Below are positions 34,766 through 56,835 of a stretch of 64,000 bases of DNA, piece by piece (position 1 is the first letter of the stretch; every line of letters begins with the position of its first letter). This stretch comes from Bacteroidia bacterium. Its GTDB lineage: Bacteria > Bacteroidota > Bacteroidia > Flavobacteriales_D > Cryomorphaceae. Where the stretch lies: NCBI GenBank assembly GCA_030427905.1, contig JAUICL010000010.1:1-64000 (forward strand), in the 5' to 3' direction. The position numbers and the translations under genes were made by a program. The notes below the pieces were generated by a model that was given only the letters and a program-made list of their open reading frames with translations, ran no database searches and had not been told where the DNA came from.

Positions 34766-34797
34766 AAGTATCAACCTTTGATAAAAAAAACAGAGTT

Positions 34798-35379: not shown

Positions 35380-35567
35380 CGCTGATAATCAGCGGTTAGT
35401 TTTCGACGATGAAAAGTCAATAAGTCTTGTTTCCAAAGGTCTTTTGGTATGAAAGTTGAAGTATACTTGTAATGTAAGCATCTTATTTCATTATGTGTCG
35501 TTCGACACGATTGGAACAAAATGATTGGTTAAACAGAAAACCCGCCAAACGAGGCGGGTTTTTTGTT
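35380..35567 (+). ncRNA. Candidate small RNA, element A
   Basis: Proposed order: hairpin CGCTGA-TAA-TCAGCG (35380-35394); hairpin TTTTC-GACGAT-GAAAA (35400-35415); a hairpin around CCAAAG...TTTTGG; conserved block GTAAGCATCTTATTTCATT (35474-35492); variable hairpin GTGTC-GTTC-GACAC (35495-35508); GATTGG (35509-35514) and GATTGGTT (35523-35530); terminator (35537-35567). A TAAATTCG at 35367-35374, one mismatch from the -7 consensus, would give a start near 35380. The 5' boundary is an estimate. I do not recognise the family. Confidence 0.65.
35537..35567 (+). terminator. Terminator of element A
   Basis: AAAACCCGCC pairs with GGCGGGTTTT around loop AAACGA, followed by TTGTTTTT. Confidence 0.9.
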
Positions 35568-35641
35568 TTTAAGAAAGGGGGGGAGAATTTAATGTTGATT
35601 GTATATAGTATGAGAATTGCGTCAGCGTGAAAATTTTAAGA

Positions 35642-35810
35642 TTCTTTCGCATTGCGAAGGAAAATTCAAAAAAAATCACAAAGCGTGAAACTTAAAACGT
35701 TTATTCCCGTTTAAGGGAGTGTAAGCATCTTATTTCATTCAGAACTGGTTATTCTGATTGGTTAAAATGATTGGTTGAAAAAGCCCCGCAAACGAGCGGG
35801 GCTTTTTTTT
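35642..35810 (+). ncRNA. Candidate small RNA, element B
   Basis: Same order as A: strong hairpin TTCTTTCGC-ATT-GCGAAGGAA (35642-35662); a TCCC-GTTTAA-GGGA hairpin; the same 19-base block GTAAGCATCTTATTTCATT (35721-35739); variable hairpin CAGAA-loop-TTCTG (35740-35756); two GATTGGTT boxes (35756-35763, 35769-35776); terminator (35779-35810). Block-to-second-box spacing is 29 nt, against 30 in A, although the hairpin between them differs in sequence. The 5' boundary is an estimate. Confidence 0.65.
35779..35810 (+). terminator. Terminator of element B
   Basis: AAAAGCCCCGC pairs with GCGGGGCTTTT around loop AAACGA, the same loop as in element A though the stem differs; at least eight T follow. 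Confidence 0.92.
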
Positions 35811-35834
35811 ATACTTCAATATGTTGTTTCAATC

Positions 35835-36689
35835 TTACTTTGTAATCACTACAAGATACTTACTCGCACTCCAGAATTTGAATGGATCAGTGATTTTTAA
35901 TGTCTTCTCTTCTTCACCTTCCAGTACATAAGATCCTTCCGGGTGAGTAGTCGCAAATTCTACTTTTGCTGCATTTAGAGGAATACTCATAGCTTGTGTG
36001 ATATCAACTTCGGCAAAGAAATCCGAGTTAAAATCTTCCTTAAGTTGCTTCGATCCACCCATTCCGATGATTGATCCATCTTTTTCAAGAACGCCATTGT
36101 CTTTCAAATCCTTGAAAGTACCAATTGCGAAATAAGCTCTATTGAGCTCGTCGGCCTGAATTTGAATAATATCTGCTTGGATCTCGTTTCTGAATTCCGC
36201 TGAATCCAACATTTCATTCAAGATTTCGATGGTGAAATTCGCAGCGGTCAAATTCTCCTTCAAATAGGCAATCTCTTCCTCTTTGCTTTCAATGTCTTCA
36301 GACAATTGGTTGAGCATGTTCTTCATGCTTTCCGACTCTGTACCGTAGGCTTTGAGCTGTCGGTCCATTTTTTCAATTGTAGACTTGTTGTCAGCCAATA
36401 AGTTATTGATCGCCTGAATGTCCTTAGTGATGGCTTCTCGTGTATCGGTTCCTTCTTTGAGGTCTCCCATGCTCACTTCTATATTGTCTTCTCGTTGGCT
36501 GATAAGAGCAAGATTTTGCTGGATACTCGCAAAACTCTCTTCGAAAAGCGTGAGTGTTGAGTCCTTAACATCCAATTCGCTTTGAAGCGCTTGGTTTTCT
36601 TCTTGAAGTCTATTGATTTCCTCTTTTTTGCTTGTGCCACAGCTAGCCAAAATAACTGCAGAGATGAACATTAGAGCAATTTTTTTCAT
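35835..36689 (-). CDS. Coiled-coil lipoprotein
   Basis: 284 residues: a lipoprotein signal (MKKIALMFISAVILASCG, lipidated Cys17) followed by a long charged coiled coil (about 20-175). A smaller globular C-terminal part (about 180-284) contains AYFAIGTFKDLKDNGVL. No known enzyme motif. The long helix could span part of the periplasm. I start at ATG 36689 because the lipobox follows at the right distance; the frame extends upstream without signal-like sequence. Convergent with element B, whose terminator lies about 25 nt away. Function unknown. Confidence 0.85.
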   Translation of the reverse strand: MKKIALMFISAVILASCGTSKKEEINRLQEENQALQSELDVKDSTLTLFEESFASIQQNLALISQREDNIEVSMGDLKEGTDTREAITKDIQAINNLLADNKSTIEKMDRQLKAYGTESESMKNMLNQLSEDIESKEEEIAYLKENLTAANFTIEILNEMLDSAEFRNEIQADIIQIQADELNRAYFAIGTFKDLKDNGVLEKDGSIIGMGGSKQLKEDFNSDFFAEVDITQAMSIPLNAAKVEFATTHPEGSYVLEGEEEKTLKITDPFKFWSASKYLVVITK

Positions 36690-36732
36690 GTCTTGGTTTT
36701 TAGATATGGGGTCAAATATAAGGTTAAGTTGA

Positions 36733-37230
36733 TTAATCAAGGTCGTATTCTGAGTGTCCATGACTTTCAATAGGTAAGTCAAACCCATCTCTAATTTCTG
36801 GGTGTCTAATTTCTCCCCCCGATTTTGCAGCAATCAACATATATCCCGTGCTGCCTAGAGAGCCTAACATGACAAGTATGGTGAGTAAATGGGCAAACGA
36901 TCGCTTTTTGACATTTGCCCAAAGCGCCACGACTGCCAGTAATCCAAGAAAAAGGGCAAATGTACGGGCACCTTCTCCTTTTTCTTCATGTTCATGTATC
37001 ATGTCGTGAAGCCTAACTTCATGTAGCATTTTCTCGACGATTTCTTCGGCATCTTCCCCAGTACTAACCACAGGTATAGCTGTAGCTCCGGCGAGAATCA
37101 AAAAGACAAAACCCAAATTCTTGATTCCATGGCTTCTGAAGATCAAGCCGATTGAGATACTGATTAATGCAAAAAATGTGGCGAAAACCGGAAGGTGATT
37201 CAATGCCAAATGGGCCTGTGCAGCGTTCAT
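36733..37230 (-). CDS. Four-helix membrane protein (DUF2231-like)
   Basis: 165 residues starting MNAAQAHLALNHLPVFATFF. Four hydrophobic helices (about 14-32, 40-58, 93-112 and 120-140) are separated by a His/Glu-rich loop (HEVRLHDMIHEHEEKGEG). The early HLPVF motif and helix arrangement resemble small cytochrome-like or DUF2231-type membrane proteins of Bacteroidota, and the several histidines could bind heme or metal; this is inference. ATG at 37230 chosen; an upstream in-frame start at 37299 adds 23 polar residues before the family-like opening. Confidence 0.72.
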   Translation of the reverse strand: MNAAQAHLALNHLPVFATFFALISISIGLIFRSHGIKNLGFVFLILAGATAIPVVSTGEDAEEIVEKMLHEVRLHDMIHEHEEKGEGARTFALFLGLLAVVALWANVKKRSFAHLLTILVMLGSLGSTGYMLIAAKSGGEIRHPEIRDGFDLPIESHGHSEYDLD

Positions 37231-37378
37231 ATCCTGAGATTTTGCACTAACATACGATTTGTCATGCAGAACACGTGAATAAAGCGATTTATGAGACACT
37301 CCATACTTCTCTCTTTGCTTGAGATACCGTGAAAGGGGTATAATGGAACCGTCGCTTTGTCGATTCCCAATTCTCTTG

Positions 37379-37386
37379 TATTTTCG
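37379..37386 (+). promoter_or_regulatory. Possible -7 element of the feo operon
   Basis: TATTTTCG, one mismatch from TAnnTTTG, 41 nt before the feoA ATG in the 197-nt divergent gap. No convincing Fur or DtxR palindrome could be made out by eye. Confidence 0.3.
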
Positions 37387-37427
37387 CGTTTGTTTAGACT
37401 CATTTTAAATAGAATCATTCAGTTTAT

Positions 37428-37652
37428 ATGACGGCTGATCGCATTTTGCTCAAAGAAGTAGTAGAGATTCTTCAAGTTGACTCATCGGAAATGGGAAGAA
37501 GACTTGGTGAAATGGGGTTTCTTCCCGGAAAGTCTATTCAATTGCTCTTGAAAGCTCCATTTGGAGATCCCATGGCGTTTCAGATTGACAACACCGTTAT
37601 CGCACTCCGAAAAGACGAAGCACAATCCATACGAGTTAAAGTTAACTCCTAG
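37428..37652 (+). CDS. feoA: Ferrous iron transport protein A
   Basis: 74-residue SH3-like FeoA domain protein thought to interact with FeoB and modulate Fe2+ uptake. The pattern RRLGEMGFLPGKSIQLLLKAPFGDP followed by IALRKDEAQSIRV is the usual FeoA core. It is followed after 15 nt by feoB, and the operon ends with a small FeoB-associated peptide. Confidence 0.93.
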   Translation: MTADRILLKEVVEILQVDSSEMGRRLGEMGFLPGKSIQLLLKAPFGDPMAFQIDNTVIALRKDEAQSIRVKVNS

Positions 37653-37667
37653 AGAGTGTGTATTACT

Positions 37668-39767
37668 ATGGGAGAAGCATTTACCCCAACTACAATCGCC
37701 CTTGCCGGTGTTCCTAATGTTGGAAAGACCACTATATTTAATAGCCTGACTGGGCTCAACCAGAAAATCGGGAATTACCCAGGAGTTACCGTCGATAAGA
37801 AAACGGGCGTATTCAAGCACGAAGGTCATGCCCTGAGAATCGTTGATCTACCCGGTACGTACAATATTTTTCCCCGCTCCGAAGATGAGCGCGTTGTATT
37901 TAGAGTCCTGAGTGGGCTTGAGAAGAATACAAAAGTAGATGCCATATTGGCTGTTGTCGATATGTCCAACTTGGAGCGCGGTTTGTTTCTGATCACCCAA
38001 CTTATTGATCTGGGCTACCCGCTTGCTGTGATTCTCAATATGGCCGATCAAGCAGACCGTCAGCAGATTTCGCTGAATAAAAACATGCTCGAAAGGCTTC
38101 TTGGAGTCCCTGTTTTTATAGCTGCAGCCGATAAAGGTCAGGGCATTGAAGAGATCAAGTCGGCTTTGGTTCGTGGTGAGTTTAAGGTGGGCAGGTCGGT
38201 TCTTGACCACAATGATTTGGGAAGTGAAGAGCTCCTGCTCAAAGTGGCTGGTATTACCAACCAGCCAAATGCATTTCGCGCCCTTCAAGTTTTAAAATTC
38301 CGCTCCAAAGAGACAGAACACAAGGAAAGACTTGATGAACTTGCTCGAGAGTTTGAATTCGATGCCGATACCGCTCAGTCAGTCGAAACAGAGTTGCGGT
38401 ACAAGAAGGTGGATGAAATCATTGCGAAATGCGTTAAGAAACCGCTCAAACCGATTCCTGAAATCAGTCGGAAATTGGATGCTGTTTTTCTACACAAGTT
38501 TTGGGGTGCTTTCATCTTTGCGGCCATTATGTTTTTACTGTTCCAATCTATTTTTACATGGGCTGAAGCACCAATGGATTGGATCGACAATGGCTTTGCC
38601 TTTTTGGGACACTGGGTTGAAAATGCCTTGCCCTCTGGCGTTTTAACCGACTTGTTGACAGAGGGAATCATTCCCGGTTTGGGTGGCATTGTCATATTCG
38701 TACCGCAAATCGCTCTTCTATTTGCTTTCCTGGCTATTTTGGAAGGAACTGGCTACATGGCTAGAGCGGTTTTCATTACCGATAGGTTGATGCGTCCCTT
38801 TGGCTTGAATGGCCGAAGCGTGGTTCCGCTCATCTCAGGTTTTGCCTGTGCCATCCCAGGTATTATGGCTACCCGTACCATTTCAAATACAAAGGACAGG
38901 CTCATCACCATTTTCGTCACGCCGTTTATGAGTTGTGCAGCTCGGCTTCCCGTCTACATCATTCTCATCGGGCTGCTATTTCCCGATTCTGATGGAGGAA
39001 TCTTTGATTCTCGTGGTTTGGCCATGTTTTTCTTATACCTGTTGGGAATAGTTGCTGCCTTGGCTTCGGCATTTGTCATGAAGCTGTTTATGAAAACGTA
39101 TCGCAATGGTGGACTTGTACTGGAGCTTCCGCGATACCAGTACCCGAACGTGAAGACCGTTTTGCTAACTGTTTACGAGAAGTCAAAGACATTTGTATTT
39201 GAAGCGGGTAAGATCATCCTAGCCATTTCGATCGTCCTTTGGGTAATGGCTTCTTATGGACCTACTCAACAAATGGAAGCTGCGCGAAACTCGGTTCCCC
39301 AACCTGTGGAGCAATCTGAGATAGCCGAGGAAGAATACCAGCAAAAGTTGGCATCTGCTGAGCTCGAAGCTTCGTATGCTGGAATAGTTGGGAAATGGAT
39401 CGAGCCGGTTATCAAGCCGCTGGGTTATGATTGGAAAATTGGAATTGCCCTTGTTTGTAGTTTCGCAGCTCGCGAAGTTTTCGTTTCAACCATGGCCACA
39501 CTTTACAGTATAGGCGATAGCGACGAAGATATTGAGTCGCTCCAGGACTTACTAAAAGGAGAGAAGCGGCCTGACGGGACACCAGTTTTTACCTTGGCTA
39601 TGGTTTGGTCTCTTTTGATATTCTACGCCTTTGCCATGCAGTGCATGAGTACGGTGGCTGTGGTGTATCGCGAGACCAAGTCTATAAAATGGCCGGCTAT
39701 TCAAACGGTTTATATGACTGTTCTGGCCTATGTTTCTGCATTTTTGACTTATCATTTCTTATCTTGA
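37668..39767 (+). CDS. feoB: Ferrous iron transporter FeoB
   Basis: Inner-membrane Fe2+ transporter of 699 residues with an N-terminal G domain: G1 GVPNVGKTTIFNSLTG at about 14-29, G3 DLPGTYN at about 60, G4 NMAD at about 125. A helical guanine-dissociation-inhibitor-like spacer follows, then the membrane domain (about 285-699) with two Gate motifs (FACAIPGIMATR and the SFAAREVFVSTMATLYSIG segment). I start at ATG 37668; a GTG at 37656 is possible. Anaerobic or microaerobic ferrous iron uptake is the known role. Confidence 0.96.
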   Translation: MGEAFTPTTIALAGVPNVGKTTIFNSLTGLNQKIGNYPGVTVDKKTGVFKHEGHALRIVDLPGTYNIFPRSEDERVVFRVLSGLEKNTKVDAILAVVDMSNLERGLFLITQLIDLGYPLAVILNMADQADRQQISLNKNMLERLLGVPVFIAAADKGQGIEEIKSALVRGEFKVGRSVLDHNDLGSEELLLKVAGITNQPNAFRALQVLKFRSKETEHKERLDELAREFEFDADTAQSVETELRYKKVDEIIAKCVKKPLKPIPEISRKLDAVFLHKFWGAFIFAAIMFLLFQSIFTWAEAPMDWIDNGFAFLGHWVENALPSGVLTDLLTEGIIPGLGGIVIFVPQIALLFAFLAILEGTGYMARAVFITDRLMRPFGLNGRSVVPLISGFACAIPGIMATRTISNTKDRLITIFVTPFMSCAARLPVYIILIGLLFPDSDGGIFDSRGLAMFFLYLLGIVAALASAFVMKLFMKTYRNGGLVLELPRYQYPNVKTVLLTVYEKSKTFVFEAGKIILAISIVLWVMASYGPTQQMEAARNSVPQPVEQSEIAEEEYQQKLASAELEASYAGIVGKWIEPVIKPLGYDWKIGIALVCSFAAREVFVSTMATLYSIGDSDEDIESLQDLLKGEKRPDGTPVFTLAMVWSLLIFYAFAMQCMSTVAVVYRETKSIKWPAIQTVYMTVLAYVSAFLTYHFLS

Positions 39768-39771
39768 TTGA

Positions 39772-39906
39772 ATGAACTTTGATTGGCAAGAAATAGTCGT
39801 TTTGACACTTTTCGCAGTAGTCGTGATCTTCGGGGTTCGGAAGGTGATTTTGTCGAGGCGAAGCAAGGGGTGTGCAAGTTGTGATTTCAATAAAGAAGCC
39901 AAGTAA
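39772..39906 (+). CDS. FeoB-associated Cys-rich membrane protein
   Basis: A 44-residue gene beginning four bases after the feoB stop. It has one membrane helix (about 8-27, ending FGVRKVILSRRSKG), then a CASCDF motif and a short charged tail. This matches the small FeoB-associated Cys-rich membrane family (PF12669) found downstream of feoB in many bacteria, where the cysteines may bind iron. Position, size and motif all agree, though the sequence is too short for certainty by eye. Confidence 0.85.
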   Translation: MNFDWQEIVVLTLFAVVVIFGVRKVILSRRSKGCASCDFNKEAK

Positions 39907-40026
39907 ACAAAGGGTTTTTGGGTTTTGCTGTCCGGGAAATAAACTCCGGTTTTCACTTTGTTTTTGTCCTTTTCCAGAATCATTTTATCTATCATTGCGG
40001 GCTTAAATTTTTTGGATCAACCCCAT

Positions 40027-42000
40027 ATGAATTTTAAGCAAAAAGTAATTCTCGGTATTTCATTTTTAGTCGGTACTCCAGCTTCCTTCGCCCAAGAATC
40101 TACAGAGCTTGGCGAAGTAGTCGTTTCTACAGCAAGAACTGAAGTGGGTATATCTGATGCGGCTAGAACCATACATGTGATCAGTCGTCAGGAGATTGAA
40201 GATGCGCCAGTTGAATCGATTCCCGAGTTGCTTGAGTTTGTGACGAGTTTAGATATTCGCCAGCGGAGCCCAAACGGTGTGCAAGCCGATGTGAGTTTGC
40301 GCGGTTCGAGTTTCGAGCAAGTAGCCATTTTGCTCAATGGTGTGAAAATGTCCGATCCACAGACGGGGCACCATCAGCTCAATCTGCCCATAGAATTGAT
40401 GGACATTGAGCGAATCGAAGTAGTTTATGGTGGCGCATCTCGAGTGTTTGGACCTGGAGCATTCGCTGGTGCGATCAATATCATTACAAAGAATCCAACC
40501 GAGAGCAGAATCCGTGCAAACCTTGAAGCAGGCGATTATGGATACCTTCAGGGCGGGGCATCGGCTGTGCTAGCCTATGAAAAACACGCGCACAGTTTTA
40601 GCTTGGTACGCCGACAAGCAGATGGCCCGGAGCGAAACCAAGATTTCCAACTAACAAACTTCTTTTGGCAATCTGATTTGAACCTGGAAGACTCAAAATG
40701 GTTCTTCAACTTCGGGCAGAACGAAAAGGAATTTGGTGCTCAAAACTTCTATTCCACTCGATTCCCCGACCAGTATGAAGCCACCAAAGCGCAGTTTGTG
40801 TCGGCAGGTGGGCATAAAGATTTTGGTTCGCTTCGGATTTCCCCAAAGGCCTATTATCGCGTTCACAATGATCGGTTTGAGCTATTCAGAGAAGGAGACG
40901 GGTATTACCACAGGCTGCCTTCAGGTGGGTTTGCCAACAATGAAGGGGACACCATCACTTGGTACAATGGACACAATTACCACCAATCTGATGTGTTTGG
41001 GGCAGAGATAAACGCTAGCTATGAATGGAAATTGGGGACCACCAGCCTTGGCTACGATTACCGCGAAGAGCGCATCAAGAGCAATGTGCTAGGGGAGCCA
41101 CTGGATCATGCTGAAGAAGTAAGTGGCGAACATCCATCGGCATTATACACCAATGGAGCTGATCGCCAAAATCAAAGTGTGTACATCGAGCACAACTACG
41201 CCGGAAAGAACCTGTTTATTTCGGCTGGAGCCATGTTCAATACTAACAGCGACTACGGTGATGAGATTTTTCCCGGGGCCGACATCGCGTATCAGGTGTC
41301 TGAAACATTCCGTCCGTACGTCTCTGCCAATAGGGCGTTCCGCGTCCCTTCTTACACCGAGCTCTACTATAACCTTGGTGGCGCAGTTGGAAGCCAGGAT
41401 TTGAGTCCAGAGTCTTCGATAAATCTTGAAGTCGGTGTACACATTGATCGGAATTGGGCAAAGGGGCACCTAGCTGTGTTTAATCGTCAGGGTGAAAACT
41501 TGATTGATTGGATTCGTTTCGTTCCGGATGGTGATTTGATTGCATCGAACATTTCAGAATTGGACATGTCGGGAGTGGAAACGGCGTGGCGATTTGACGT
41601 TTCAAAGATGAACGAAAACTCGGCCTTGAAAACCATAAGCGCTAATTACACCTATCTCACCGCCGATTATGATCCGGTTGGGATCGAGTCCATCTACGTT
41701 TTGGACTACCTCGAATCCAAATTTGATCTAGGCTTCCATTTTACCTTTTGGAAAACGGTGGAACTGGATTTGAACATGTCATACCAGGATCGAGTAGGGG
41801 AGTTCACCCAAGTTGATGGTAGTTTGAAAGCGTACGATCCGGTGTTTTTAACCGATCTTCGAATTAGTCCGCGCATTGGAAAAGCCCGCTTGTTTGTTCA
41901 GGTTTCCAATTTGTTTAACCAGCATTACTTCGATTTGGGAGGAGTGCAGCAACCGGGAAGATGGATGAGAGCTGGGGTTACCTTCGATTTTGGAATCTAA
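40027..42000 (+). CDS. TonB-dependent outer-membrane receptor (BtuB-like)
   Basis: 657-residue outer-membrane barrel with a signal peptide (MNFKQKVILGISFLVGTPASFAQ). A TonB box-like stretch (GEVVVSTA) is followed by a plug domain (about 30-150; SLRGSSFEQVAILLNGVKMSDPQTG, VYGGASRVFGPGAFAGAINIITK) and a C-terminal beta-barrel ending in VTFDFGI with a terminal aromatic strand. Size and plug are like the BtuB/vitamin and metal group. It lies 120 nt downstream of the feo operon, so an iron or heme substrate is plausible but unproven. ATG 40027 chosen because it begins the signal peptide. Confidence 0.92.
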   Translation: MNFKQKVILGISFLVGTPASFAQESTELGEVVVSTARTEVGISDAARTIHVISRQEIEDAPVESIPELLEFVTSLDIRQRSPNGVQADVSLRGSSFEQVAILLNGVKMSDPQTGHHQLNLPIELMDIERIEVVYGGASRVFGPGAFAGAINIITKNPTESRIRANLEAGDYGYLQGGASAVLAYEKHAHSFSLVRRQADGPERNQDFQLTNFFWQSDLNLEDSKWFFNFGQNEKEFGAQNFYSTRFPDQYEATKAQFVSAGGHKDFGSLRISPKAYYRVHNDRFELFREGDGYYHRLPSGGFANNEGDTITWYNGHNYHQSDVFGAEINASYEWKLGTTSLGYDYREERIKSNVLGEPLDHAEEVSGEHPSALYTNGADRQNQSVYIEHNYAGKNLFISAGAMFNTNSDYGDEIFPGADIAYQVSETFRPYVSANRAFRVPSYTELYYNLGGAVGSQDLSPESSINLEVGVHIDRNWAKGHLAVFNRQGENLIDWIRFVPDGDLIASNISELDMSGVETAWRFDVSKMNENSALKTISANYTYLTADYDPVGIESIYVLDYLESKFDLGFHFTFWKTVELDLNMSYQDRVGEFTQVDGSLKAYDPVFLTDLRISPRIGKARLFVQVSNLFNQHYFDLGGVQQPGRWMRAGVTFDFGI

Positions 42001-42133
42001 GTTCGTGCATAATTTAACCGATCAAGGATAATTAGCCACATCTTTTTTCCGTTTCTTTGCAACTGAAACTCGAAAGTGCTGTTTTGCGACGGCATTTTTT
42101 AAGCCTTCGGGCTATTATTTTTAAGTAGCAAGG

Positions 42134-43252
42134 ATGAATACGAAATCGATCAAGTTCAATCTCCAAGATCAACCCGAATTCTTTAAGGAGCTCCGCTCTA
42201 GGGTTAACGCATATTTCAAAGACAACGGAATTTCTAAATACGGAAACTGGAATATGAAGCTGAAAACAGTTTTCATGTTGTCACTGTACTTTGTCCCCTT
42301 AATCATGATGCTCACGGGTGTTGTTTCTTCCGTGTGGTTGTCCATGATTATGTGGTCGCTAATGGGCTTTGGAATGGCGGGAATTGGCTTGTCGGTTATG
42401 CATGATGCCATTCACGGATCGTACTCCAAGAACAAGACGGTTAATAAATGGATGGGAAACTGTATTCAGCTGATCGGTGGATACCGTGAAAATTGGAGAA
42501 TCCAGCACAATGTTCTCCACCATTCGTATACTAATGTACCTGGATTGGATGAAGATATCGAGTTGAGCGTAATCCGACTAAGCCCTGAGCAAGACCGATG
42601 GTTTATCCACAAATTTCAGGCCTTCTACGCGCCACTTCTTTATGGATTGATGACGGTTTACTGGTCGCTCGGAAAGGACTTTGATCAAATCATTCGCTAC
42701 AAGCGCAAAGACCTTTTGAAAGGAAATGGCTTGACCTTCAAATCGGCAATGACAGAGATCATCATTCATAAAATCTGGTATTTCGCCTTGCTTTTGGCAC
42801 TTCCTATCTGGTTGTCAGAAATTACGTGGTGGCAAGTTGTTCTCGGCTACCTATTGATGCATTTTATTTGTGGTCTCACCTTGGCCTTGATTTTCCAAGC
42901 AGCACACGTCGTAGAAGAAACAGAGTACATGATTCCTGATGAGAATGGCTCGATGGAGAACAACTGGGCTATTCACCAAATGAAAACCACAGCTAATTTT
43001 GCTAACGGTGCTCGCCTGTTCTCTTGGTTTATCGGTGGATTGAACTACCAAATTGAGCACCATCTATTCCCAAACATCTGCCACGTTCACTATCGAAATA
43101 TTTCGAAGATTGTGCGCGAAACAGCACGGGAATTCAATGTTCCTTACAACTCTCACAAGACCTTTGCAAGAGCGCTAAAGAGCCATTTCACTCTTTTACA
43201 CGAGCTTGGAACTGGTGCCTACGACAAGCGCTTGGCTCCGGTTAAGAACTAA
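42134..43252 (+). CDS. Fatty acid desaturase (acyl-lipid/acyl-CoA type)
   Basis: 372-residue membrane di-iron enzyme that inserts a double bond into acyl chains. The three histidine boxes are present: HDAIHG at about 90, HNVLHH at about 124, and QIEHHLFP at about 306. Four or more membrane helices are arranged around them. The N-terminus (FKELRSRVNAYFKDN) matches the delta-6/linoleoyl-CoA-like group common in Bacteroidota, without a cytochrome b5 domain. A small UUCG-loop hairpin (AGCC-TTCG-GGCT) followed by T-rich sequence lies at about 42101-42122. Confidence 0.92.
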   Translation: MNTKSIKFNLQDQPEFFKELRSRVNAYFKDNGISKYGNWNMKLKTVFMLSLYFVPLIMMLTGVVSSVWLSMIMWSLMGFGMAGIGLSVMHDAIHGSYSKNKTVNKWMGNCIQLIGGYRENWRIQHNVLHHSYTNVPGLDEDIELSVIRLSPEQDRWFIHKFQAFYAPLLYGLMTVYWSLGKDFDQIIRYKRKDLLKGNGLTFKSAMTEIIIHKIWYFALLLALPIWLSEITWWQVVLGYLLMHFICGLTLALIFQAAHVVEETEYMIPDENGSMENNWAIHQMKTTANFANGARLFSWFIGGLNYQIEHHLFPNICHVHYRNISKIVRETAREFNVPYNSHKTFARALKSHFTLLHELGTGAYDKRLAPVKN

Positions 43253-43336
43253 GGATACTCTTTTAATTTTTTTTGGGTTTGGTGCACCTTGTTTTGGCTC
43301 GTATATTCATGGCTTAAAACAAACCATCAACCAATA

Positions 43337-46300
43337 ATGAAGTTTTCTTATCTGCTCGCTGCGGCCCTGATCTGGGCTTCGGCAGGTTTTGCCCAAAAGA
43401 AGGGTGACAAATCGGAAAAGCCGCGATTTGAATCATCGACGTTCAGTGGGCTTCAATTGCGCAATATCGGGCCAGCCCTGACTTCAGGACGGATATCTGA
43501 CATAGCGGTAAATCCAACTAAGCACTCTGAATATTACCTGGCCATCGCCAGTGGTGGTGTTTGGAAAACGTCGAATAATGGAACCACCTTCGAACCAATA
43601 TTCGATGGCCAAGGTTCTTATTCCATAGGGTGCATCTCGATGTCTCCGACAAATTCAAATGTACTTTGGGTCGGAACGGGTGAGAATAATAATCAACGTT
43701 CTGTTGCTTACGGCGATGGAGTTTACAAATCAGTAGACGGTGGAAAGTCGTGGAAGAATATGGGGCTCAAAGAATCGGAGCACATAGGGATGTTCGCTAT
43801 TCACCCCGAAAATGACGACATCGTGTACGTAGCTGCCTACGGACCCCTGTGGAGTGCGGGAGGAGACCGTGGGATCTACAAAACTACAGACGGAGGAGAA
43901 AACTGGGAAAAAGTTCTCGAAGTCTCCGAGAATACCGGATTCAACGAGATTCACATGGATCCAAGAGATCCGAATGTACTTTACGCCACAGCTCATCAGC
44001 GCCGCCGACATGTTTGGACTTACATCGATGGTGGTCCGGAAACGGCCATTTACAAATCGGTAGATGGCGGTGCCAATTGGAATAAGCTTTCGAATGGGTT
44101 ACCTAGCGGTGATTTGGGCCGAATCGGTATGGATATTTCACCTGCTAATCCAGATGTGGTCTACGCTATCATAAAAGCTACCGAAGGTGGTGGCTTTTTC
44201 AGAAGTACAGATCGCGGAGCGAGCTGGACGAAAATGTCTGACCACCAAACCAGTGGAAACTACTACCAGGAGATCATTTGTGATCTGACTGATGTTGACA
44301 AAGTCTTTTCCATGGATACTTGGCTCCACCACACCGAAGATGGTGGGAAAACCTTCGTACAAACCGGAGAGAAAAGCAAACACGTCGATAACCACTGCAT
44401 TTGGATCAATCCAAACGACCCCGACCACTGGCGTGTAGGCTGTGATGGCGGATTGTATGAAACTTGGAACGCAGCCGTAGATTGGAAATACTTCGACAAT
44501 CTTCCTGTTACACAGTTTTATAAAGTAGCGGTTGACAACGACAAGCCGTTTTATAATGTATATGGTGGTACGCAAGACAACAATACCCAAGGTGGTCCTT
44601 CGAGAACCACGAGCAACCACGGGATTATGAATAGTGATTGGATCATCACCAACGGGGGAGACGGCTTTGAGCCGCAAATAGACCCAACAGATCCGAACAT
44701 TGTATACGGACAAGCCCAGTATGGTTGGCTGGTACGATACGACAAAGCCAGCGGCGAGCGCGTTGCTATCCAGCCCCAACCGAAGAAGGGAGAGAAGGCG
44801 TATAGGTGGAACTGGGATGCCCCATTGCTGATCAGCCCGCATAATCCAAAACGACTCTACTTTGCCGCAAATGTGCTTTTCAAAAGTGATGATCGCGGAA
44901 ATTCGTGGAAAGCCATTAGTCCAGATCTGACGCGTCAGCTCGACCGCAACCAGCTCGAAGTGATGGGCCGTGTTTGGGAGCCAGAAGCGGTTATGAAAAA
45001 CAAATCAACTTCGATTTACGGAAACATCGTCGCTCTCGATGAATCGCCTGTCAAGCAAGGCTTGCTCTATGTAGGAACGGACGATGGTTTGATTCAGGTC
45101 TCAGAAGATGATGGAGCAAACTGGACTAAAGTAGATGGCGTATCAGGAGTTCCAGCCAAAACTTATGTCAATAGTTTGATCGCTTCGCAGCATGATGAGA
45201 ATGTGGTTTATGCTGCGTTCAACAACCACAAGAACGGTGATTTTAAGCCTTATGTGTTGAAGAGTACAAACAAGGGTAAGTCTTGGACATCAATTAGCTC
45301 AGATTTACCAGTACGTGGTTCGGTGTACACCATTGCCGAAGATCATATCGATCCTGACCTTCTCTTTGTGGGAACCGAGTTTGGACTGTTTTTCACTTCG
45401 GATGGAGGGCAGCACTGGACACAGTTGAAAGCGGGGATTCCAACTATCGCCGTTCGCGACATTGCGATTCAAAGACGCGAAAATGACTTGGTTCTGGCTA
45501 GTTTTGGTCGCGGTTTCTACGTACTCGATGATTATTCTTGTTTGCGAGATTTTGATGAGCAGACTATGAAAATGGATGGAAAGATATTCTCTCCACGCGA
45601 AGCATTGCTCTACGTCGAATCAAATCGTATGGGCCTGACTGGAAAAGGAAGTCAAGGTGAAAACCTTTATACAGCTCCCAATCCCGAATATGGAGCCGTG
45701 TTTACTTACTACATTGGTGATACCACGATTACCACAGCAAAAAGCAAGCGTCTCAAAGAGCAAAAGGCCAAGCGTAAATCTGGGGAGAAGATAGACTATC
45801 CGAGTATCGAGACATTGAGAGAAGAAGATCGGGAAGACGATCCATACATTTTGTTTGAGATAGCCGATGCCAATGGTAAAATTGTTCGTCGCTTGAAAAC
45901 TTCGGCGAGCAAGGGGATAAATCGAATTGCTTGGAACCTAAGGCATGCAACCACATCGCCTATCAAATTATCGCAAGGTAAGCGCGGTAGGTATTCTTCG
46001 CCAGACGAAGGAATGCTAGCTCTACCGGGTATTTATAGCGTCCGCGCATTGAAATACGTTGATGGTGAGTTTTCGGAGCTCTGTCCGTCTGTTGCATTTA
46101 CAGTTGTTCCACTCGATAATCAAACCCTTCTAGCTCAAGACAAATCGAGCGTGATGGCCTTTCAGGCCGATGTGGCAGAGTTGAAGCGTTCTCTGTCTGG
46201 GATTCAGAAAATCCACGGCGAGAATGGAAACCGTTTGGATCACATCAAAGCAGCCATTGAGCAATATCCATCGGCACCAATTAATCTTATGAGCGAAGTG

Positions 46301-46612: not shown

Positions 46613-46633
46613 AACTTAGAATAGAATACATTG

Positions 46634-46667: not shown

Positions 46668-46690
46668 GTTATCTTGCGGCCGAACCAATC

Positions 46691-47983: not shown

Positions 47984-47999
47984 TAAGTGAATGTAAAAA

Positions 48000-48081: not shown

Positions 48082-48165
48082 AACATTCTCCAAGGATTGT
48101 TAATGAAATCATAATTAGTTGTGTGCTAAAATCTTTTTCTAGAGATTTCGGTCAAACAATCATTT

Positions 48166-48690: not shown

Positions 48691-49514
48691 AGCATTTATT
48701 CGGAATTATCGCTGTGCTGTCGGGCATGATGGCCACTGCCCAGCCCAATTGCAATGTGTTTTTGTACGAAGGAGATACGGTTAAGTACAATGCGTGTCAG
48801 GTCTTGGACGAGCGCGCTGGGCACTACCAGTTTAGTAGGGAGTATCAGGAAGCCTGCGACAGATCGCTCGCCATAGACTCTACATTTGGTTACCCGTACA
48901 AAATCAAATCAACGGCTTACTTAAAAAGCGGTGATATGATAACTTGGATGGAGTTGATGAACAAGGCTGTTGAGTTGAACCCCAAGGAATACCTGAGCTA
49001 CCGCGGATGGTGTCGGTATCAGTTTTTTAGAGATTACGAAGGAGCTATTGCCGATATTGAAGAACTAGACCGACTGGTGGACTACGATATCGGCGGTTCG
49101 GTAAACGGAGATTACCACCTCGAGATAGCTAGAGCACTTTGCTACAAAGCTCTTGATGAAAAAGAAAAGGCTGCGTCGATCATTGAAGAGCACATCAGTT
49201 CCGAGGACTACTATCAGGGTCTCTTTGACTATTTGCATCTAGGAGTGCTTTATTTCGATCTCGGGGAGTACGATAAAGCTCAAGCCGCATTCACCGCCCA
49301 AAACGACCACAACCCACTTGCCGAAACTGACTTCTACAGAGCTCTCTGTTACGAAGCTCAAGGCAATTTAGATCAAGCTCAAGAGTGGATGAATTCGGCA
49401 TATGACAAGTATCAAAGCCAAACTCGCATGCTTGAGTCCTACACCCACCACGAAGACAAAATCTATCTGGCGGATATCGAACGGGAGTTGGAGCGAATTC
49501 AAGGCCAGAACTAA
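48687..49514 (+). CDS. Exported TPR protein
   Basis: 275 residues with a signal peptide (1-18, ending MATAQ) and tetratricopeptide repeats over most of its length. These include NKAVELNPKEYLSYRGWCRY, LHLGVLYFDLGEYDKAQAAF and FYRALCYEAQGNLDQAQEWM. Translationally coupled to the preceding lipoprotein gene, suggesting the two work together in the periplasm or outer membrane. No enzymatic motif. Confidence 0.87.
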   Translation: MKHLFGIIAVLSGMMATAQPNCNVFLYEGDTVKYNACQVLDERAGHYQFSREYQEACDRSLAIDSTFGYPYKIKSTAYLKSGDMITWMELMNKAVELNPKEYLSYRGWCRYQFFRDYEGAIADIEELDRLVDYDIGGSVNGDYHLEIARALCYKALDEKEKAASIIEEHISSEDYYQGLFDYLHLGVLYFDLGEYDKAQAAFTAQNDHNPLAETDFYRALCYEAQGNLDQAQEWMNSAYDKYQSQTRMLESYTHHEDKIYLADIERELERIQGQN

Positions 49515-49524
49515 TTGTTTTTAC

Positions 49525-49558
49525 CAAAAAAAGCCCTCCGAACTACTTCGAAGGGCTT
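49525..49558 (-). terminator. Terminator between the TPR gene and icd
   Basis: On the minus strand AAGCCCTTCGAA pairs with TTCGGAGGGCTT (one mismatch), followed by a run of seven T, ending icd transcription. It may also act on the plus-strand gene, though only weakly T-rich there. Confidence 0.82.
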
Positions 49559-49591
49559 CTTGATTCTTTGTACTTAATACATTGTACGGAC

Positions 49592-51820
<2,229 letters not shown>

Positions 51821-51919
51821 CTAGTCTTTTATAGTTACTATTTGTTCTTCGATTGCAGTTTATGCCAGCTTCAGGAGAATGGCATAATTGAGTCGGCGAA
51901 GATACTAAACTGAATGATA

Positions 51920-51950
51920 AAGAATCGGCCATCCGAGATGGATGGCCGAA
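51920..51950 (-). terminator. Terminator after the subtilase gene
   Basis: On the minus strand TCGGCCATCC pairs with GGATGGCCGA around ATCTC. The following sequence (TTCTTTATC) is only moderately T-rich. Confidence 0.65.
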
Positions 51951-51955
51951 TGTTT

Positions 51956-54900
51956 TTAATGCTGAACGATAAGCTTCGATTTATCAATCAAGCTCTGATT
52001 TTGATAGACTTCTATGAGGTAAATCCCCGAAGCGAATTCTTGAACATTCACATCTACAAAATATGAGTTGGAATGTGTCTGGTGCACAACTCGTCCTTGC
52101 AGGTCTCTGATAACTAGATCGAAGGCATCGTCCAGATCTACTGAGACGCGAGTTGCTGAACTCGAAGGGTTGGGGAAGACTTGAAGCACAGCAGCACCTT
52201 CTGGCTCATTCCCGTATTGCACAACAAGATTTTGGGTGCCGATATCATTAGTTTGCGGAACGCAATCTCCAGTTTCATAGACTTGTACATCTCTAAAGCT
52301 CGAATTGTCACCGCTTCCAGCATCGTTGTCGCTAACAAAGCAAAGCCTATTGAAAGTACCCGTGTAAAAACTACCAACTGGTATGGTGTAATGGGTCCAT
52401 CCTGAGACATAGTTATCGTAGTTGGTAATTCCCCAGTTTTGGGTTCCATGCACCTTAAAAGTGTAGGTTGTAGAAATGCTATTGTTGTTGTCAAATCCGA
52501 TGCCGTGAATCTCTCCCTGAGACGTGCTTCGGAAATCAAAGCTAATCACAGTGTTCGGCGTAACTACATAATTCAAAGGGATTGACTTCCAAGCATTATT
52601 GGCAATATTGAGTTGAGCTCCGCCATTTTCAATCGAGAAGCTCCCTTCATCTTGGGTTCCACCGTAGCTATCTACTCCGGTAGAATTAAAATCTATGGTA
52701 GGGCAGTCGTTCGAACTGGTTTCACCAGCGCAAAGTGCTTGATACTCAAAATTAGGAAAGGCTCCTCCATCGTGAAGGATATTGTCTTGGCTATCGATAA
52801 TCTGATAAGATCCATTTCCATTTGCGCAACAGAGACCGTTATTACCACTATCGAAAATGCTAAAGGTGAAACACGTAGTCTCAAGACAAACTGACTCTAC
52901 AAAGGTTGAATTAGCGAGATTGCTATCATAGGATGAACTTATCGCTGCGATCTGATTGTTGTCGTCATAGATGATCCAAGAAATCTCGGAAGGATTTCCG
53001 TCAAAATTGAATACAATATCGATCTCTTCGCCTGAGCAATCTGATCCTGATGATTCAAAAATCGATACATCGTCTATGGCCATGTCACTCCTGAAGCCAT
53101 TACCCGTGGTACCTTCAAATCGAAATTTCACACCAGTTTCACCGTCGAACTGGTCAAGCGAGACTTCTGTAGTCTTCCAGGCATTTCCCTGATTACCCGA
53201 AAGGCTCCAAAGCGAAACCCAATTACCACCTTCTGTTTGTGCAAGGAGTTCCAAGGACCCCATACTTGAGCCGTACATATGATAGTCGAAGGAGATCACC
53301 ATGTTGCTACTGTTTGAGAAATCAAAACAAGATGATTCGATGATCGCATTTTTAGATGGGTAGTTTGGGCTCGATGCTTCAATGTAGAGGTAATAATTGC
53401 CTTCACTGGCCGTAGCAGGGCCAGTAGAGCTAGAAGGGGTGCCACTCGCATCGCGTGTCCAATCGAGTTGATCACTCACTAATTGACTCCATTCAAAACT
53501 AGCCGACTCGAACCCTTCTGAATAAGGGAATTCATCAATCAATTGCTGGCAATAGGTCTCTGGAACAGCTTCTCCGAGACTCAATCCATCTACCGCGATA
53601 TCGCTTGTATATCCAGTACCCGTGGTCCCAACAAGGCGAAGCCTGAGCTCGGTATTGTTCGAGTAGCTTGAAAGGTCTACCACTGCTGGAAACCAAGAAC
53701 TTCCTTGATTTCCCGACATGGTCCATACTTCTTCCCAGACAACTCCATCAGCACTAGCTTCCACGCTCAAAGAGCCCATGGACGTGCCGTACATGTGGTA
53801 ATCAAACATCAAGGCTGGATCACTCAAAGACGTCAGGTCGAAACATGGTGATACTAGACGGGCTATTTTGCTTGGGTAATTGGGTGATGAAGCTTCGACG
53901 TAGATGTAGTCGTTTCCTTCACTGGCACCAGATGGGCCCGTATTGCTCGATGGTGTCGTTCCTGTTCTCGAAATCCAATCAAGGTCATCGAGCGGATCTT
54001 GCGTCCAGGCGCCAAAGCCATTTTCAAAGTTTTCGCTGTAAGGAAGGGTACCGATACTTGATGTACATTCATTAGTAGGGATGCTCAAGGTGCTCAATGC
54101 ATCGTAGGCGCTCACGCGGCCGTGACCAAAGGTGTTGTCGAAACCCGTAGCTCCCATATCGGTGGCATTGTCTTCGATCAACTCCCTGACTTCATTTTCT
54201 TCTAAACTTGGATCAACTGATAGAATGAGAGCGGCCACCCCTGAAACGACGGGACAAGCAGCTGATGTTCCCCCAAAACCGCTGGTGTAAGAGCCCGAAG
54301 AGTAGCCAGCGCTACCCGTGCGATCGATGGTGTACACGCCGGCTCCAGCTTGCCCAGGGGCCGAGTTTGAAGGCGCTACCACGTCCAATGCAGGGCCTTC
54401 ATTCGAGTAGTTTGATTTGGATCCCATATTTGTCACAGCACCTACTGCCATTACGTAGGATAGATCAGCGGGGTAGTCTACACAGGTTTTGTAGCCATTA
54501 CCCGAAGCGAAGATCACGACAGACCCTAAACCACTTCGCCCATTGTTTCGGGCATTGTTTATGGCATTGTTGAGTGCAGAAAGCGACAGGTTGCACGAGG
54601 TGTAGCCCCAGCTATTGCTCATAACGTCGGCGCCATTGGTTCGTGCCCAGTTGAATGCGGCAGCCAAGTCAGCCGTTGTTTCGCTTCCTTGAAAGATGTT
54701 TACACTCAAGAGATTGACTCCCGGCGCCACTCCACGAACACCAATGGTATTGTGACTAGCTCCAATAATTCCGGCGCAGGCTGTTCCGTGGCCATCATTG
54801 CTTGCTATGGGATCTCCATTGCCGTTGTTTGCAGGTGTGTGTCCGTCTACTACTTTCGAAGCTCCAGAGCTGTTCTCCAAGTCGGGGTGGCTGGCTTGAA

Positions 54901-55597
54901 CCCCATCGTCTATTACCGCTACGGTTATGGATGAGCTCCCAGTTGTGATGTCCCAAGCCTCGGGAGCATCACAATCCACATCTGCTTGGCCGGTATACCC
55001 CTGTATCGTCTGTCCCGTGTTGTTCATCTGGAACTGATTAGGGTAGTTCGGATCCGAAAATTTGGTGTGATTGGCATAAAAATTTGGGTGAGCCCAGTTC
55101 ACATCACCGCTTTCTACTAGTTGATTTGAAATGTGAAGTGTATGGTGTGGGTGCTGCGCGGTTCCGATATAGCTGCCGTATTGATCTCGACGTACATCTA
55201 CATCTAGATCCTTGAGATCTTGAAGGACTCGCTGTTCCATGCCTGGTTTGGGTTCGAAGAGTAATTCGTAACCGAGCCACATGTCAAAACCATCATCCAG
55301 TTCATAAACAGGAACGATACTTTTAATATCAAGACTGCTCACCAAAGGGTTGGATTCCAGGTTCTCATTCGTTTCAACGATCACCATGTTATATTTTGCA
55401 ATAGACTTGATGATTGTGAATGAATTGGATACCCGATCAAAGGCATTGTAGTCTTCAATTGTTTCAAAATGAACGATGTGGGTGTCGTTTCGGGGGGAGA
55501 GCTCCTGAGCGCCGTTGTCGCCGTAAAAGTAGTTTTGAGAGTATAGGAAAGGGGCGGCCATGACAAAGGCCAGTGTAAGCAGTATTAGTCTTTTCAT
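51956..55597 (-). CDS. T9SS-secreted subtilisin-like (S8) protease with two MAM-like domains
   Basis: 1213 residues. Order: signal peptide (1-20); propeptide-like region (about 25-170); peptidase S8 domain with the triad Asp in VAVIDDGVQ (about 229), His in NDGHGTACAG (about 268) and Ser in GGTSAACPVV (about 443); two tandem MAM-like modules (about 515-685 and 690-860) each containing FDYHMYG and an SPNYPSK; a Cys-rich beta module (about 860-965); a carbohydrate-binding-like module (about 970-1120); a type A T9SS sorting domain (about 1135-1213, VFPNPSSSATRV). Secreted or surface protease. Transcribed away from the LuxR-type gene's 3' end by about 70 nt. Confidence 0.95.
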   Translation of the reverse strand: MKRLILLTLAFVMAAPFLYSQNYFYGDNGAQELSPRNDTHIVHFETIEDYNAFDRVSNSFTIIKSIAKYNMVIVETNENLESNPLVSSLDIKSIVPVYELDDGFDMWLGYELLFEPKPGMEQRVLQDLKDLDVDVRRDQYGSYIGTAQHPHHTLHISNQLVESGDVNWAHPNFYANHTKFSDPNYPNQFQMNNTGQTIQGYTGQADVDCDAPEAWDITTGSSSITVAVIDDGVQASHPDLENSSGASKVVDGHTPANNGNGDPIASNDGHGTACAGIIGASHNTIGVRGVAPGVNLLSVNIFQGSETTADLAAAFNWARTNGADVMSNSWGYTSCNLSLSALNNAINNARNNGRSGLGSVVIFASGNGYKTCVDYPADLSYVMAVGAVTNMGSKSNYSNEGPALDVVAPSNSAPGQAGAGVYTIDRTGSAGYSSGSYTSGFGGTSAACPVVSGVAALILSVDPSLEENEVRELIEDNATDMGATGFDNTFGHGRVSAYDALSTLSIPTNECTSSIGTLPYSENFENGFGAWTQDPLDDLDWISRTGTTPSSNTGPSGASEGNDYIYVEASSPNYPSKIARLVSPCFDLTSLSDPALMFDYHMYGTSMGSLSVEASADGVVWEEVWTMSGNQGSSWFPAVVDLSSYSNNTELRLRLVGTTGTGYTSDIAVDGLSLGEAVPETYCQQLIDEFPYSEGFESASFEWSQLVSDQLDWTRDASGTPSSSTGPATASEGNYYLYIEASSPNYPSKNAIIESSCFDFSNSSNMVISFDYHMYGSSMGSLELLAQTEGGNWVSLWSLSGNQGNAWKTTEVSLDQFDGETGVKFRFEGTTGNGFRSDMAIDDVSIFESSGSDCSGEEIDIVFNFDGNPSEISWIIYDDNNQIAAISSSYDSNLANSTFVESVCLETTCFTFSIFDSGNNGLCCANGNGSYQIIDSQDNILHDGGAFPNFEYQALCAGETSSNDCPTIDFNSTGVDSYGGTQDEGSFSIENGGAQLNIANNAWKSIPLNYVVTPNTVISFDFRSTSQGEIHGIGFDNNNSISTTYTFKVHGTQNWGITNYDNYVSGWTHYTIPVGSFYTGTFNRLCFVSDNDAGSGDNSSFRDVQVYETGDCVPQTNDIGTQNLVVQYGNEPEGAAVLQVFPNPSSSATRVSVDLDDAFDLVIRDLQGRVVHQTHSNSYFVDVNVQEFASGIYLIEVYQNQSLIDKSKLIVQH

Positions 55598-55665
55598 ACG
55601 AAAACAGAACTTGGTTAAAAACTTCGACAGCTAAATCTAACCAATTGATCCTTAAAACCGAAGAA

Positions 55666-56406
55666 CTAATCTGTGTTATAGAGGGATCCCATCTCAAACA
55701 TCTGCAAAAGTTCAAAGGTGTTTCGACAGCTGGTTTTGTGGAGCATGTTTTTTCGGTACCCAATGATTGTGTGGTAGGAGAGACCCAATGTTTCAGCAAT
55801 GGTCTTACTATCCAAGCCGTTCTTTAAAAGTTCAAAAACTTCCAGTTCTCTTTTGGAGAAAAGATCGACGGGTGATACGTCTATGAATTTTCGATATCCC
55901 GAAAGGTCGGCCGTGGGGCTGTCCCAATACCAACGTACGGCATTTGATAATCCCAGATACGAAATGTCTTGAACCACTGAGTAGTGCGAGCGCAGCGTTC
56001 TGTTGGAGTTCAAACGACAAACCCCGGATGTACGTTGAACTTTGATATATGAACCGTCTTTTTTCTTGTATCTACAGGATATTCGAAATGTAGAGTCTGT
56101 GGTGATTCCATGCTTTTGACTAAACTCAAGAGTAGACATCAGCACTTTACGGACCACGGGAAGATCATCGGGATGGACTATGTTAAATGGGGTGTCGTAA
56201 TCAAACTCTTCTTCTTCATAGCCCAACAAATCTTTGATCCCTCTCTGATAGATCACTTTATTGTCTTTGAGATCTAAGACGTACAAGGCCTCGTTGTGAA
56301 GCAAGGGGTATGTGGTATAGCTAAACTTTTTATAATCTGCTTTTCCTTTATCGACATTTAAACCTCTTGAAATGTCGTTGAGCTCGGTTTGAAATTCCTC
56401 ATGCAT
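55666..56406 (-). CDS. PAS-LuxR transcriptional regulator
   Basis: 246-residue cytosolic regulator. A PAS-like sensor (about 30-145; ALYVLDLKDNKVIYQRGIKDLLGYEEEEF then a FRISCRYKKKDGSYIKVQRT strand) precedes a LuxR-type helix-turn-helix at about 180-240 (FSKRELEVFELLKNGLDSKTIAETLGLSYHTIIGYRKNML). No receiver domain or transmembrane segment. Its target is unknown; the neighbouring subtilase gene downstream and the RNA-like elements upstream are candidates by position. Confidence 0.9.
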   Translation of the reverse strand: MHEEFQTELNDISRGLNVDKGKADYKKFSYTTYPLLHNEALYVLDLKDNKVIYQRGIKDLLGYEEEEFDYDTPFNIVHPDDLPVVRKVLMSTLEFSQKHGITTDSTFRISCRYKKKDGSYIKVQRTSGVCRLNSNRTLRSHYSVVQDISYLGLSNAVRWYWDSPTADLSGYRKFIDVSPVDLFSKRELEVFELLKNGLDSKTIAETLGLSYHTIIGYRKNMLHKTSCRNTFELLQMFEMGSLYNTD

Positions 56407-56594
56407 GTTTTACAATTTGTCTCATAATAATTTGGCTTCTAAGCTCTAGCAGATCAATTATTCATCGTCGGTCATAAATATCTTAATTTTTACCTTTTTT
56501 TCAAAAAATTATACGCTTTACATGGACAGGTGAAAGCCCGATTCAATTTTCGATGAGAAAATGAATCTTTTTCGCAACCTTAAATGCGGGTGCT

Positions 56595-56645
56595 GCGTAC
56601 ACCGAGATGTAAGCATTTTATTCTATAGATATTTGATTGGTTGAA
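56595..56645 (+). repeat. 50-bp direct repeat, copy 1 (element C)
   Basis: Starts GCGTACACCGAGATG and runs through the conserved block and GATTGGTT to the terminator. Identical to 56752-56802 except for one extra G there. Confidence 0.9.
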
Positions 56646-56679
56646 TGATCCCGGAGCACATCTGGGATCATTTTTTTTT
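56646..56679 (+). terminator. Terminator of element C
   Basis: TGATCCCGGA pairs with TCTGGGATCA (one G-T) around loop GCACA, followed by nine T. Confidence 0.92.
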
Positions 56680-56751
56680 ACCCTTTTTCCAAGGGGATTG
56701 GACTAAACTTTAAAAAAGGTGAACTTTTTTGAAACCTTCTTTGAGAAGGTC

Positions 56752-56802
56752 GCGTACACCGAGATGTAAGCATTTTATTCTATAGATATTTGGATTGGTT
56801 GA
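56752..56802 (+). repeat. 50-bp direct repeat, copy 2 (element D)
   Basis: Matches 56595-56645 with a single inserted G before GATTGGTT. Confidence 0.9.
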
Positions 56803-56835
56803 GCGATCCCAGAGAAAACTGGGATCGCTTTTTTT
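56802..56835 (+). terminator. Terminator of element D
   Basis: AGCGATCCCAG pairs perfectly with CTGGGATCGCT around loop AGAAAA, followed by seven T. Confidence 0.93.

Follow-up and report, generated by a model that had tools for sequence, protein, structure and literature searches.

Tandem copies of a putative small-RNA family and a conserved complementary RNA in a Cryomorphaceae genome

RybB and MicA are small RNAs (sRNAs) driven by sigmaE; SroC and, reportedly, the PinT antagonist are sponges, distinct RNAs that pair with an sRNA. The stretch of DNA analyzed here (the window) comprises 64,000 nucleotides (nt) of a Bacteroidia bacterium of the Cryomorphaceae, a family of marine bacteria (contig JAUICL010000010.1, positions 1 to 64,000) and contains four short elements, A to D, of a family that we call RNA1. 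Judging from the sequence, we consider it moderately probable that RNA1 is a multicopy family of trans-acting, base-pairing sRNAs antagonized by an anti-sRNA, RNA2, that would belong to another regulon of the extracytoplasmic function (ECF) sigma type. Three described systems come closest to RNA1. The LhrC family of Listeria monocytogenes (LhrC1-5; PMC4132741) is likewise multicopy, with a repeated motif and a connection to envelope stress, but its motifs are CU-rich and its regulator is the two-component system LisRK, whereas RNA1 has UUGGUU boxes, a separate 5′ block, a complementary RNA, and ECF-like or sigma54-like promoters; we claim no relation in sequence. FopS/GibS of Bacteroides, in the same phylum, shares with RNA1 the multicopy state and a single-stranded 5′ seed followed by a terminator, and FopS binds the RNA-recognition-motif (RRM) protein RbpB (PMC11697453). 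Rfp11 of Flavobacterium psychrophilum, comparable in its promoter, has a promoter with a CGT box in its −10 region, the sign by which it is ascribed to ECF sigma factors in PMC9723704; that paper also assigns functions in envelope stress to a sigma54 regulon, and its passages considered here mention neither tandem copies nor an antagonist RNA. RNA2 differs from known sponges in being a stand-alone gene with two matching segments and another ECF-type promoter, one that would oppose a multicopy family; by analogy, the RNA1–RNA2 pair would work like LhrC with a sponge added.

An earlier note on the window had described four plus-strand elements of a common layout, each ending in its own terminator, and all four were found in place, each with a conserved block at its 5′ end, a GATTGGTT box, and a terminator made up of a hairpin and a T-run. 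These elements, the four RNA1 copies of the window's own genome (G000), are composed as follows.

35444–35460, plus strand: sigma54-like box of copy A, TTGGTATGAAAGTTGAA, 13–14 nt 5′ of the block; a weak match
35474–35566, plus strand: RNA1 copy A, type I; 5′ block, variant hairpin, box GATTGGTT, terminator
35685–35714, plus strand: ECF-like promoter of copy B, GTGAAAC-N16-CGTTTAA
35721–35809, plus strand: RNA1 copy B, type I; block, hairpin with CUGGUUA loop, two GATTGGTT boxes, terminator
56573–56602, plus strand: ECF-like promoter of copy C, GCAAC-N17-CGTAC
56609–56679, plus strand: RNA1 copy C, type II; block, GATTGGTT box, terminator, without hairpin
56730–56759, plus strand: ECF-like promoter of copy D, GAAAC-N17-CGTAC
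56766–56834, plus strand: RNA1 copy D, type II; block, box, terminator, without hairpin

The block, GTAAGCAT(C/T)TTATT, begins at the first position of each copy (35474, 35721, 56609, and 56766 for A to D). With up to two mismatches allowed, the window holds these four block sites only, all exact; shuffled windows hold a mean of 1.5 and reach four or more in 4 of 100 shuffles, so that the count by itself is unremarkable and it is the four exact matches that are striking. Across the whole genome, the exact block occurs five times, namely in A to D and at one site on contig C1, which is the opposite strand of RNA2.

Upstream of 21 of the 27 RNA1 copies catalogued in the family (see below), the form AAC-N15-17-CGT was found with CGT 10–14 nt before the block; the same expression was met a mean of 0.26 times, and at most twice, in 200 sets of shuffled upstream regions. 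AAC and CGT make up the usual form of an ECF promoter. Four further copies (A, G004_a, G003_a, and G001_c) carry a GG element with TTG spaced as in sigma54 promoters (0.0002 per copy in shuffles), the best of these boxes being that of G004_a (TTGGCACGAAACTTGCC). G006_a fits both forms and two copies narrowly fail to match the ECF form, 25 of the 27 having an ECF-like or a sigma54-like box. By sequence, RNA1 copies thus have the promoter box and intrinsic terminator of their own that are expected of a trans-acting sRNA, and we infer from these that each would be transcribed as a short unit of its own, starting at the block and ending at the terminator, from an ECF-sigma-like promoter or, for the first copy of some arrays, a sigma54-like one. 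The predicted start lies at or adjoining the block in nearly every copy, which would give transcripts of about 93 (A), 89 (B), 71 (C), and 69 nt (D) instead of the 124–188 nt assumed earlier. It follows that the 5′ hairpins previously taken for parts of the RNA (35380–35473, 35642–35720, 56540–56608, and 56712–56765) would lie outside it, 5′ of the predicted start, where they overlap the ECF-like or sigma54-like boxes; the conserved RNA hairpin of A and B is a short one 3′ of the block, absent from C and D.

Of 60 genomes searched, the window's own among them, 6 contain block and box together, all of the same family, and none contains the reversed pattern. A covariance model built from 17 RNA1 copies matched 13 of 199 genomes of the order, that is, seven of the eight in the family (best E 8.6e-18) and six weakly elsewhere; the type II copy of the eighth family genome, G007, was recovered by pattern. 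The earlier note had named homologues in other Flavobacteriales as support; copies with the block turned up in no family but the window's own, and of the six weak matches in the other 191 genomes of the order, four (G118, G163, G181, and G149) look like block-less relatives and two (G075 and G191) like chance. A strict pattern run on named genomes, not sensitive enough to retrieve all true members (it passed over G003, G006, and G007), yielded five contigs, from Cryomorpha ignava, a Cryomorphaceae metagenome-assembled genome (MAG), two Flavobacteriales MAGs, and one Thermincola; in this last match (Firmicutes, L026) no terminator or ECF box was seen, and it was taken as chance. There were no RNA1 matches in viral contigs. 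The resulting catalogue, which is not exhaustive, holds 27 copies in 8/8 family genomes (four in G000, five in G001, four in G002, three in G003, six in G004, two each in G005 and G006, one in G007), leaving out a coding match with four mismatches (L019), a minus-strand match with two (L097), the RNA2 sites, and the block-less RNA L171. Type I, to which A, B, and 19 others belong, consists of the block (reading GUAAGCAUCUUAUUUCAU in most copies), a hairpin whose loop is usually UGGUUA, the UUGGUU boxes, and the terminator; type II (C, D, and four more copies) is without the hairpin.

The expectation of conserved relatives with covarying stems is borne out. In the hairpin and terminator of 17 copies, 94.1% of the cells pair and 11 of 18 pairs are changed on both sides, and none of 500 shuffles reaches the observed paired-cell share, both-side changes, or covariation score, slid versions being far lower; further pair types (21 observed, 19.4 in shuffles) were reached by 105 of the 500. 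Eight of the 11 covarying pairs lie in the terminator and three in the hairpin, whose cells are paired in 84.3%, so that covariation is clear in the terminator and less strong in the hairpin, in a structure that had been read from the same sequences. An RNAalifold consensus in which the block pairs with the hairpin loop was rejected, the pair counts favoring a local hairpin plus terminator. The family thus has conserved homologues with a conserved, predicted single-stranded segment, the 5′ block, which would be the pairing seed of RNA1, and the UUGGUU boxes before the terminator would provide a second contact or a protein site. That RNA1 instead sequesters an RNA-binding protein through repeated UUGGUUA boxes, in the manner of CsrB, seems very improbable to us. 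It would account for the presence of up to three boxes per RNA1, in the loop and in single strands, and for the doubled UUUGGUUAA boxes retained in block-less RNAs of another family of the order, yet box number varies from one (C and D) to three, some loops (A and G002_a) have no box, and the conserved block would be left unexplained; moreover, no RRM_1 match was obtained in any of the eight family genomes, with a positive Bacteroides control, in a search that did not extend to CsrA and Hfq.

No known family was recognized in RNA1, in agreement with the earlier note. Neither the window nor a set of 17 loci gave a match to Rfam at the gathering score, and the 86 and 15 sub-threshold matches of the two regions (E up to 10) lie in many cases over a terminator. 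The best of these, BjrC68 on D (E 1.1e-4, 26.2 bits, gathering 39), as well as BSnc120 on the minus strand of D (E 4.7e-4) and rnk_pseudo on B (E 0.0015, 32 bits, gathering 55), were rejected because they fall under the gathering score and come from other phyla; GibS and rteR are also among the sub-threshold matches (E 0.38–4.5). The type II copy G002_IIa aligns with the published FopS seed better than 1000 of 1000 shuffles, in one of nine tests; for four other type II copies, 9, 30, 69, and 203 of 1000 shuffles were as good, and nothing was found in the four type I copies tested. We regard the G002_IIa alignment as a lead and do not claim FopS membership for RNA1; a counterpart of RbpB, the partner of FopS, was likewise missing from the RRM_1 search, which was negative in all eight family genomes. 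A type I toxin–antitoxin reading was examined through open frames: 27 RNA1 and 8 RNA2 sequences share no closed frame, frames of at least 8 amino acids mostly running off the terminator end. A literature search confined to open-licence papers recognized none describing the family. On its sequence, RNA1 is thus a conserved sRNA-like family without a match in Rfam 15 at the gathering score and with a conserved complementary partner, and the earlier reading, short independent units of a conserved RNA family, is partly supported; that note did not contain the promoters, the two conserved loci, or RNA2.

The two loci are defined by the following genes of the window.

34750–35292, plus strand: Dps/ferritin-like gene (Pfam Ferritin; NCBIfam Dps models under cut-off), conserved upstream neighbor of type I arrays
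35835–36833, minus strand: coiled-coil-like protein gene, convergent with the A/B array
56920–57732, plus strand: short-chain dehydrogenase/reductase (SDR) gene, conserved downstream neighbor of type II copies; start shifted from the mechanical 56836 by comparison with relatives

Type I arrays lie downstream of the Dps gene in 7/8 genomes (G000–G006; in G001 this is the array on C19, a pair on C131 sitting elsewhere), and type II copies 5′ of SDR and glyoxalase-like genes in four (G000, G001, G002, and G007). This recurrence of type II copies directly 5′ of the same SDR gene would suit cis-acting leaders or attenuators of the SDR operon, a role for C and D that we find hardly credible: each of them has its own ECF-like box and terminator, and A and B, which are RNA1 copies too, point toward a convergent gene, of which they consequently cannot be leaders.

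RNA2 came to light when the block complement was searched for in the eight family genomes and the contexts of the sites were read. Its layout, a promoter GCAAC-N15/16-CGTCT, a hairpin or structured stretch, the block complement, and a terminator, is found once each in 7/8 family genomes; in the other 191 genomes the pattern gave 4 matches against 11 for its reversed form. The eighth RNA2 (G003), with a changed block complement, was recovered by the promoter search, completing 8/8. An anti-box complementary to UUGGUU (ACCAA, GACCA, or UAACCA, a motif set picked after viewing the sequences) is present at the 5′ end or in the terminator loop in 7/8 genomes, against a mean of 1.97 and a maximum of 6 in 1000 shuffles; RNA2 of G004 has none of these motifs. 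The duplex energy of RNA1 (first 60 nt) with RNA2 has a mean z of −2.97 over 27 pairs (range −5.04 to −1.44), compared with +0.45 (−1.74 to 1.84) for a control duplex with RNA3, an element described below. Within the first 22 nt, the longest perfect complement is 17 nt in G002, 15–16 in G004, 15 in C and D, 11–14 in G001, 12 in G007, and 11 in G006, and in the window's genome a matching double change links RNA2 and C/D (AAAAUGC with GCAUUUU), giving 15 perfect pairs. A complementary partner RNA encoded elsewhere, such as a sponge pair demands, is therefore present, weakly so for some copies. These arrangements bear on a further explanation, in which the block would serve not as an RNA seed but as DNA, an operator that a regulator binds where transcription begins. 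The position of the block at the predicted start in nearly every RNA1 copy would suit it, but in 8/8 RNA2 the block is inverted and lies between a hairpin or structured stretch and the terminator, and in 7/8 a second complementary box accompanies it, which makes an operator highly improbable.

With its complements of both block and box, RNA2 is most likely an anti-sRNA (sponge). Where the anti-box forms the 5′ end of RNA2, the segments run antiparallel (block, hairpin, box, and terminator in RNA1; anti-box, hairpin, anti-block, and terminator in RNA2), so that both contacts could form together. We infer from this complementarity that the RNAs may pair in the cell, RNA2, made from a promoter type that also precedes an ECF sigma gene, capturing RNA1 through block and box. 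By analogy, the RNA1 block would pair with mRNAs near their start codons, and RNA2 as a sponge would let one ECF regulon cancel the output of others. The direction of control may also be the opposite, with RNA2 regulating for its ECF regulon and the RNA1 copies serving as decoys that titrate RNA2 under other stresses. We judge this unlikely, despite the symmetry of the complementarity, the high RNA1 dosage (up to six copies), which fits decoys, and the occurrence of RNA2 in 8/8 genomes, in single copy where found and behind a strongly conserved promoter. The unpaired parts of RNA2 consist of little beyond the RNA1 complements, whereas RNA1 has further conserved parts (the repeated UUGGUU and the hairpin loop), and the exact block is present in this genome, apart from A to D, only at the RNA2 site itself, so that no other perfect RNA2 target exists there. 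As for the wider proposal that two ECF-sigma regulons are opposed through RNA alone, tandem multicopy sRNAs against a single-copy, two-contact anti-sRNA, without an RRM chaperone of the Bacteroides type, we hold it tentatively, at just short of an even call.

Several observations weigh against the reading of RNA1 as base-pairing sRNAs captured by RNA2. In the first 22 nt, no perfect complement exceeds 8 nt in A, B, or any of the three copies of G003, or 9 nt in either G005 copy, and five of the 27 duplexes are equaled by at least 7 of 200 shuffles (G000_B by 17, G002_IIa by 9, G003_a by 14, G003_c by 7, and G007_II by 21). The RNA2–C/D change, not common to A and B, is the sole clear compensating change for coevolution, and the RNA2 changes of G003, G004, and G005, which RNA1 does not compensate, speak against strict coevolution. 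The promoter and other patterns were composed after the sequences had been viewed. The sigma gene driving RNA1 was not revealed by a looser promoter pattern in 11 genomes, whose 14 matches against 12 in controls comprise five RNA1 copies, two block-less RNAs of another family, one further box-bearing RNA, and six other sites; a strict promoter pattern applied to this genome alone gave 2 matches against 3 in controls, and the ECF gene of the window (60363–60941) has no RNA1-like promoter. Finally, a search of the eight genomes for near-perfect block complements gave 54 sites (26 RNA1 copies, 6 RNA2, and 22 others) against 30 for the reversed pattern, and established no mRNA target among the 10 of the 22 remaining sites that were inspected.

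The promoter of RNA2 points to the regulon to which it may belong. GGCAAC-N15-17-CGTCT occurs at 46 sites in the eight genomes against 32 for the reversed pattern, and 43 of the 46 were inspected. Eight of these 43, one per genome (8/8), precede an apparently leaderless ECF sigma gene and 7 precede RNA2 (the G002 copy has AGCAAC and hence lies outside the 46); behind 12 lies an RNA3-like element and behind a further 7 the gene of a DUF5684-like membrane protein, and the remaining 9 fall elsewhere, mostly in coding sequence. Family tests covered an ECF protein of G004 and a DUF5684 protein of G000, the others being assigned by resemblance.

L140 and L157 (G000 C3:535719), L125, L129, L130, L131, L134, L143, L152: ECF sigma genes with the RNA2/RNA3 promoter

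Since this promoter stands before the ECF sigma gene in 8/8 genomes, the gene is probably autoregulated. It is followed by the gene of a membrane protein, plausibly its anti-sigma factor; the G004 copy of this protein, the one tested, contains a PKD domain. In the four neighborhoods read, the sigma gene also adjoins a gene recognizable as malate dehydrogenase. In the window, the ECF gene is likewise followed, within 60363–61638, by a membrane protein resembling its anti-sigma, without a Pfam match. RNA3, the third sRNA-like element behind this promoter type, has a nearly invariant GGTTTCAAAATTTTCCTTGCAGGTT core and a terminator (G000 C5:961528–961600, L156; also L133, L136, L141, L142, L145–L147, and L151). 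It occurs in close pairs in at least five of the eight family genomes and was found in 40 of 199 Flavobacteriales genomes (reversed pattern 0), without an Rfam gathering match (best below it, sau-6072, E 0.0067). RNA2 lies 5′ of a YceI-like lipoprotein gene in six genomes (L092, L094, L101, L109, L116, and L144; Pfam tested in L092, where DUF2141, MscS, and CorA-like genes are on the other side), and precedes an HlyD-type gene in G000 and a DUF6252 gene in G004. Among block-less RNAs, L171 (G002 C316:13–135) has an RNA1-type promoter, an AATTGG-type box, and a terminator; L038, L039, L040, L051, and L181 (G163, G118, and G181), of another family of the order, have an ECF-like promoter, doubled UUUGGUUAA boxes, and a terminator, with two copies each in G118 and G163; and L041 (G149) is similar behind a sigma54-like box.

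Among the 10 inspected sites, L098 (G000 C5:1019554) is a candidate RNA1 target: its sequence, AAGAAGATGCTTAC, departs from the block complement by one mismatch and lies where a 283-amino-acid frame may have its start codon. When A, B, and C were scanned against the mechanical start sites of 43 genes in the window, the best was a subtilase of the type IX secretion system (51956–55597; 0, 5, and 7 of 100 shuffles as good), which is unconvincing after 129 tests.

The sRNA networks of the Flavobacteriales are little charted, and the putative circuit, in which multicopy sRNAs and their promoters are joined by a complementary antagonist and by a sigma gene behind the antagonist's type of promoter, is conserved across the family, including Cryomorpha ignava. 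If true, it would mean that, among bacteria in which the search for RRM proteins came up empty, stress regulons may cross-talk through the titration of RNA.

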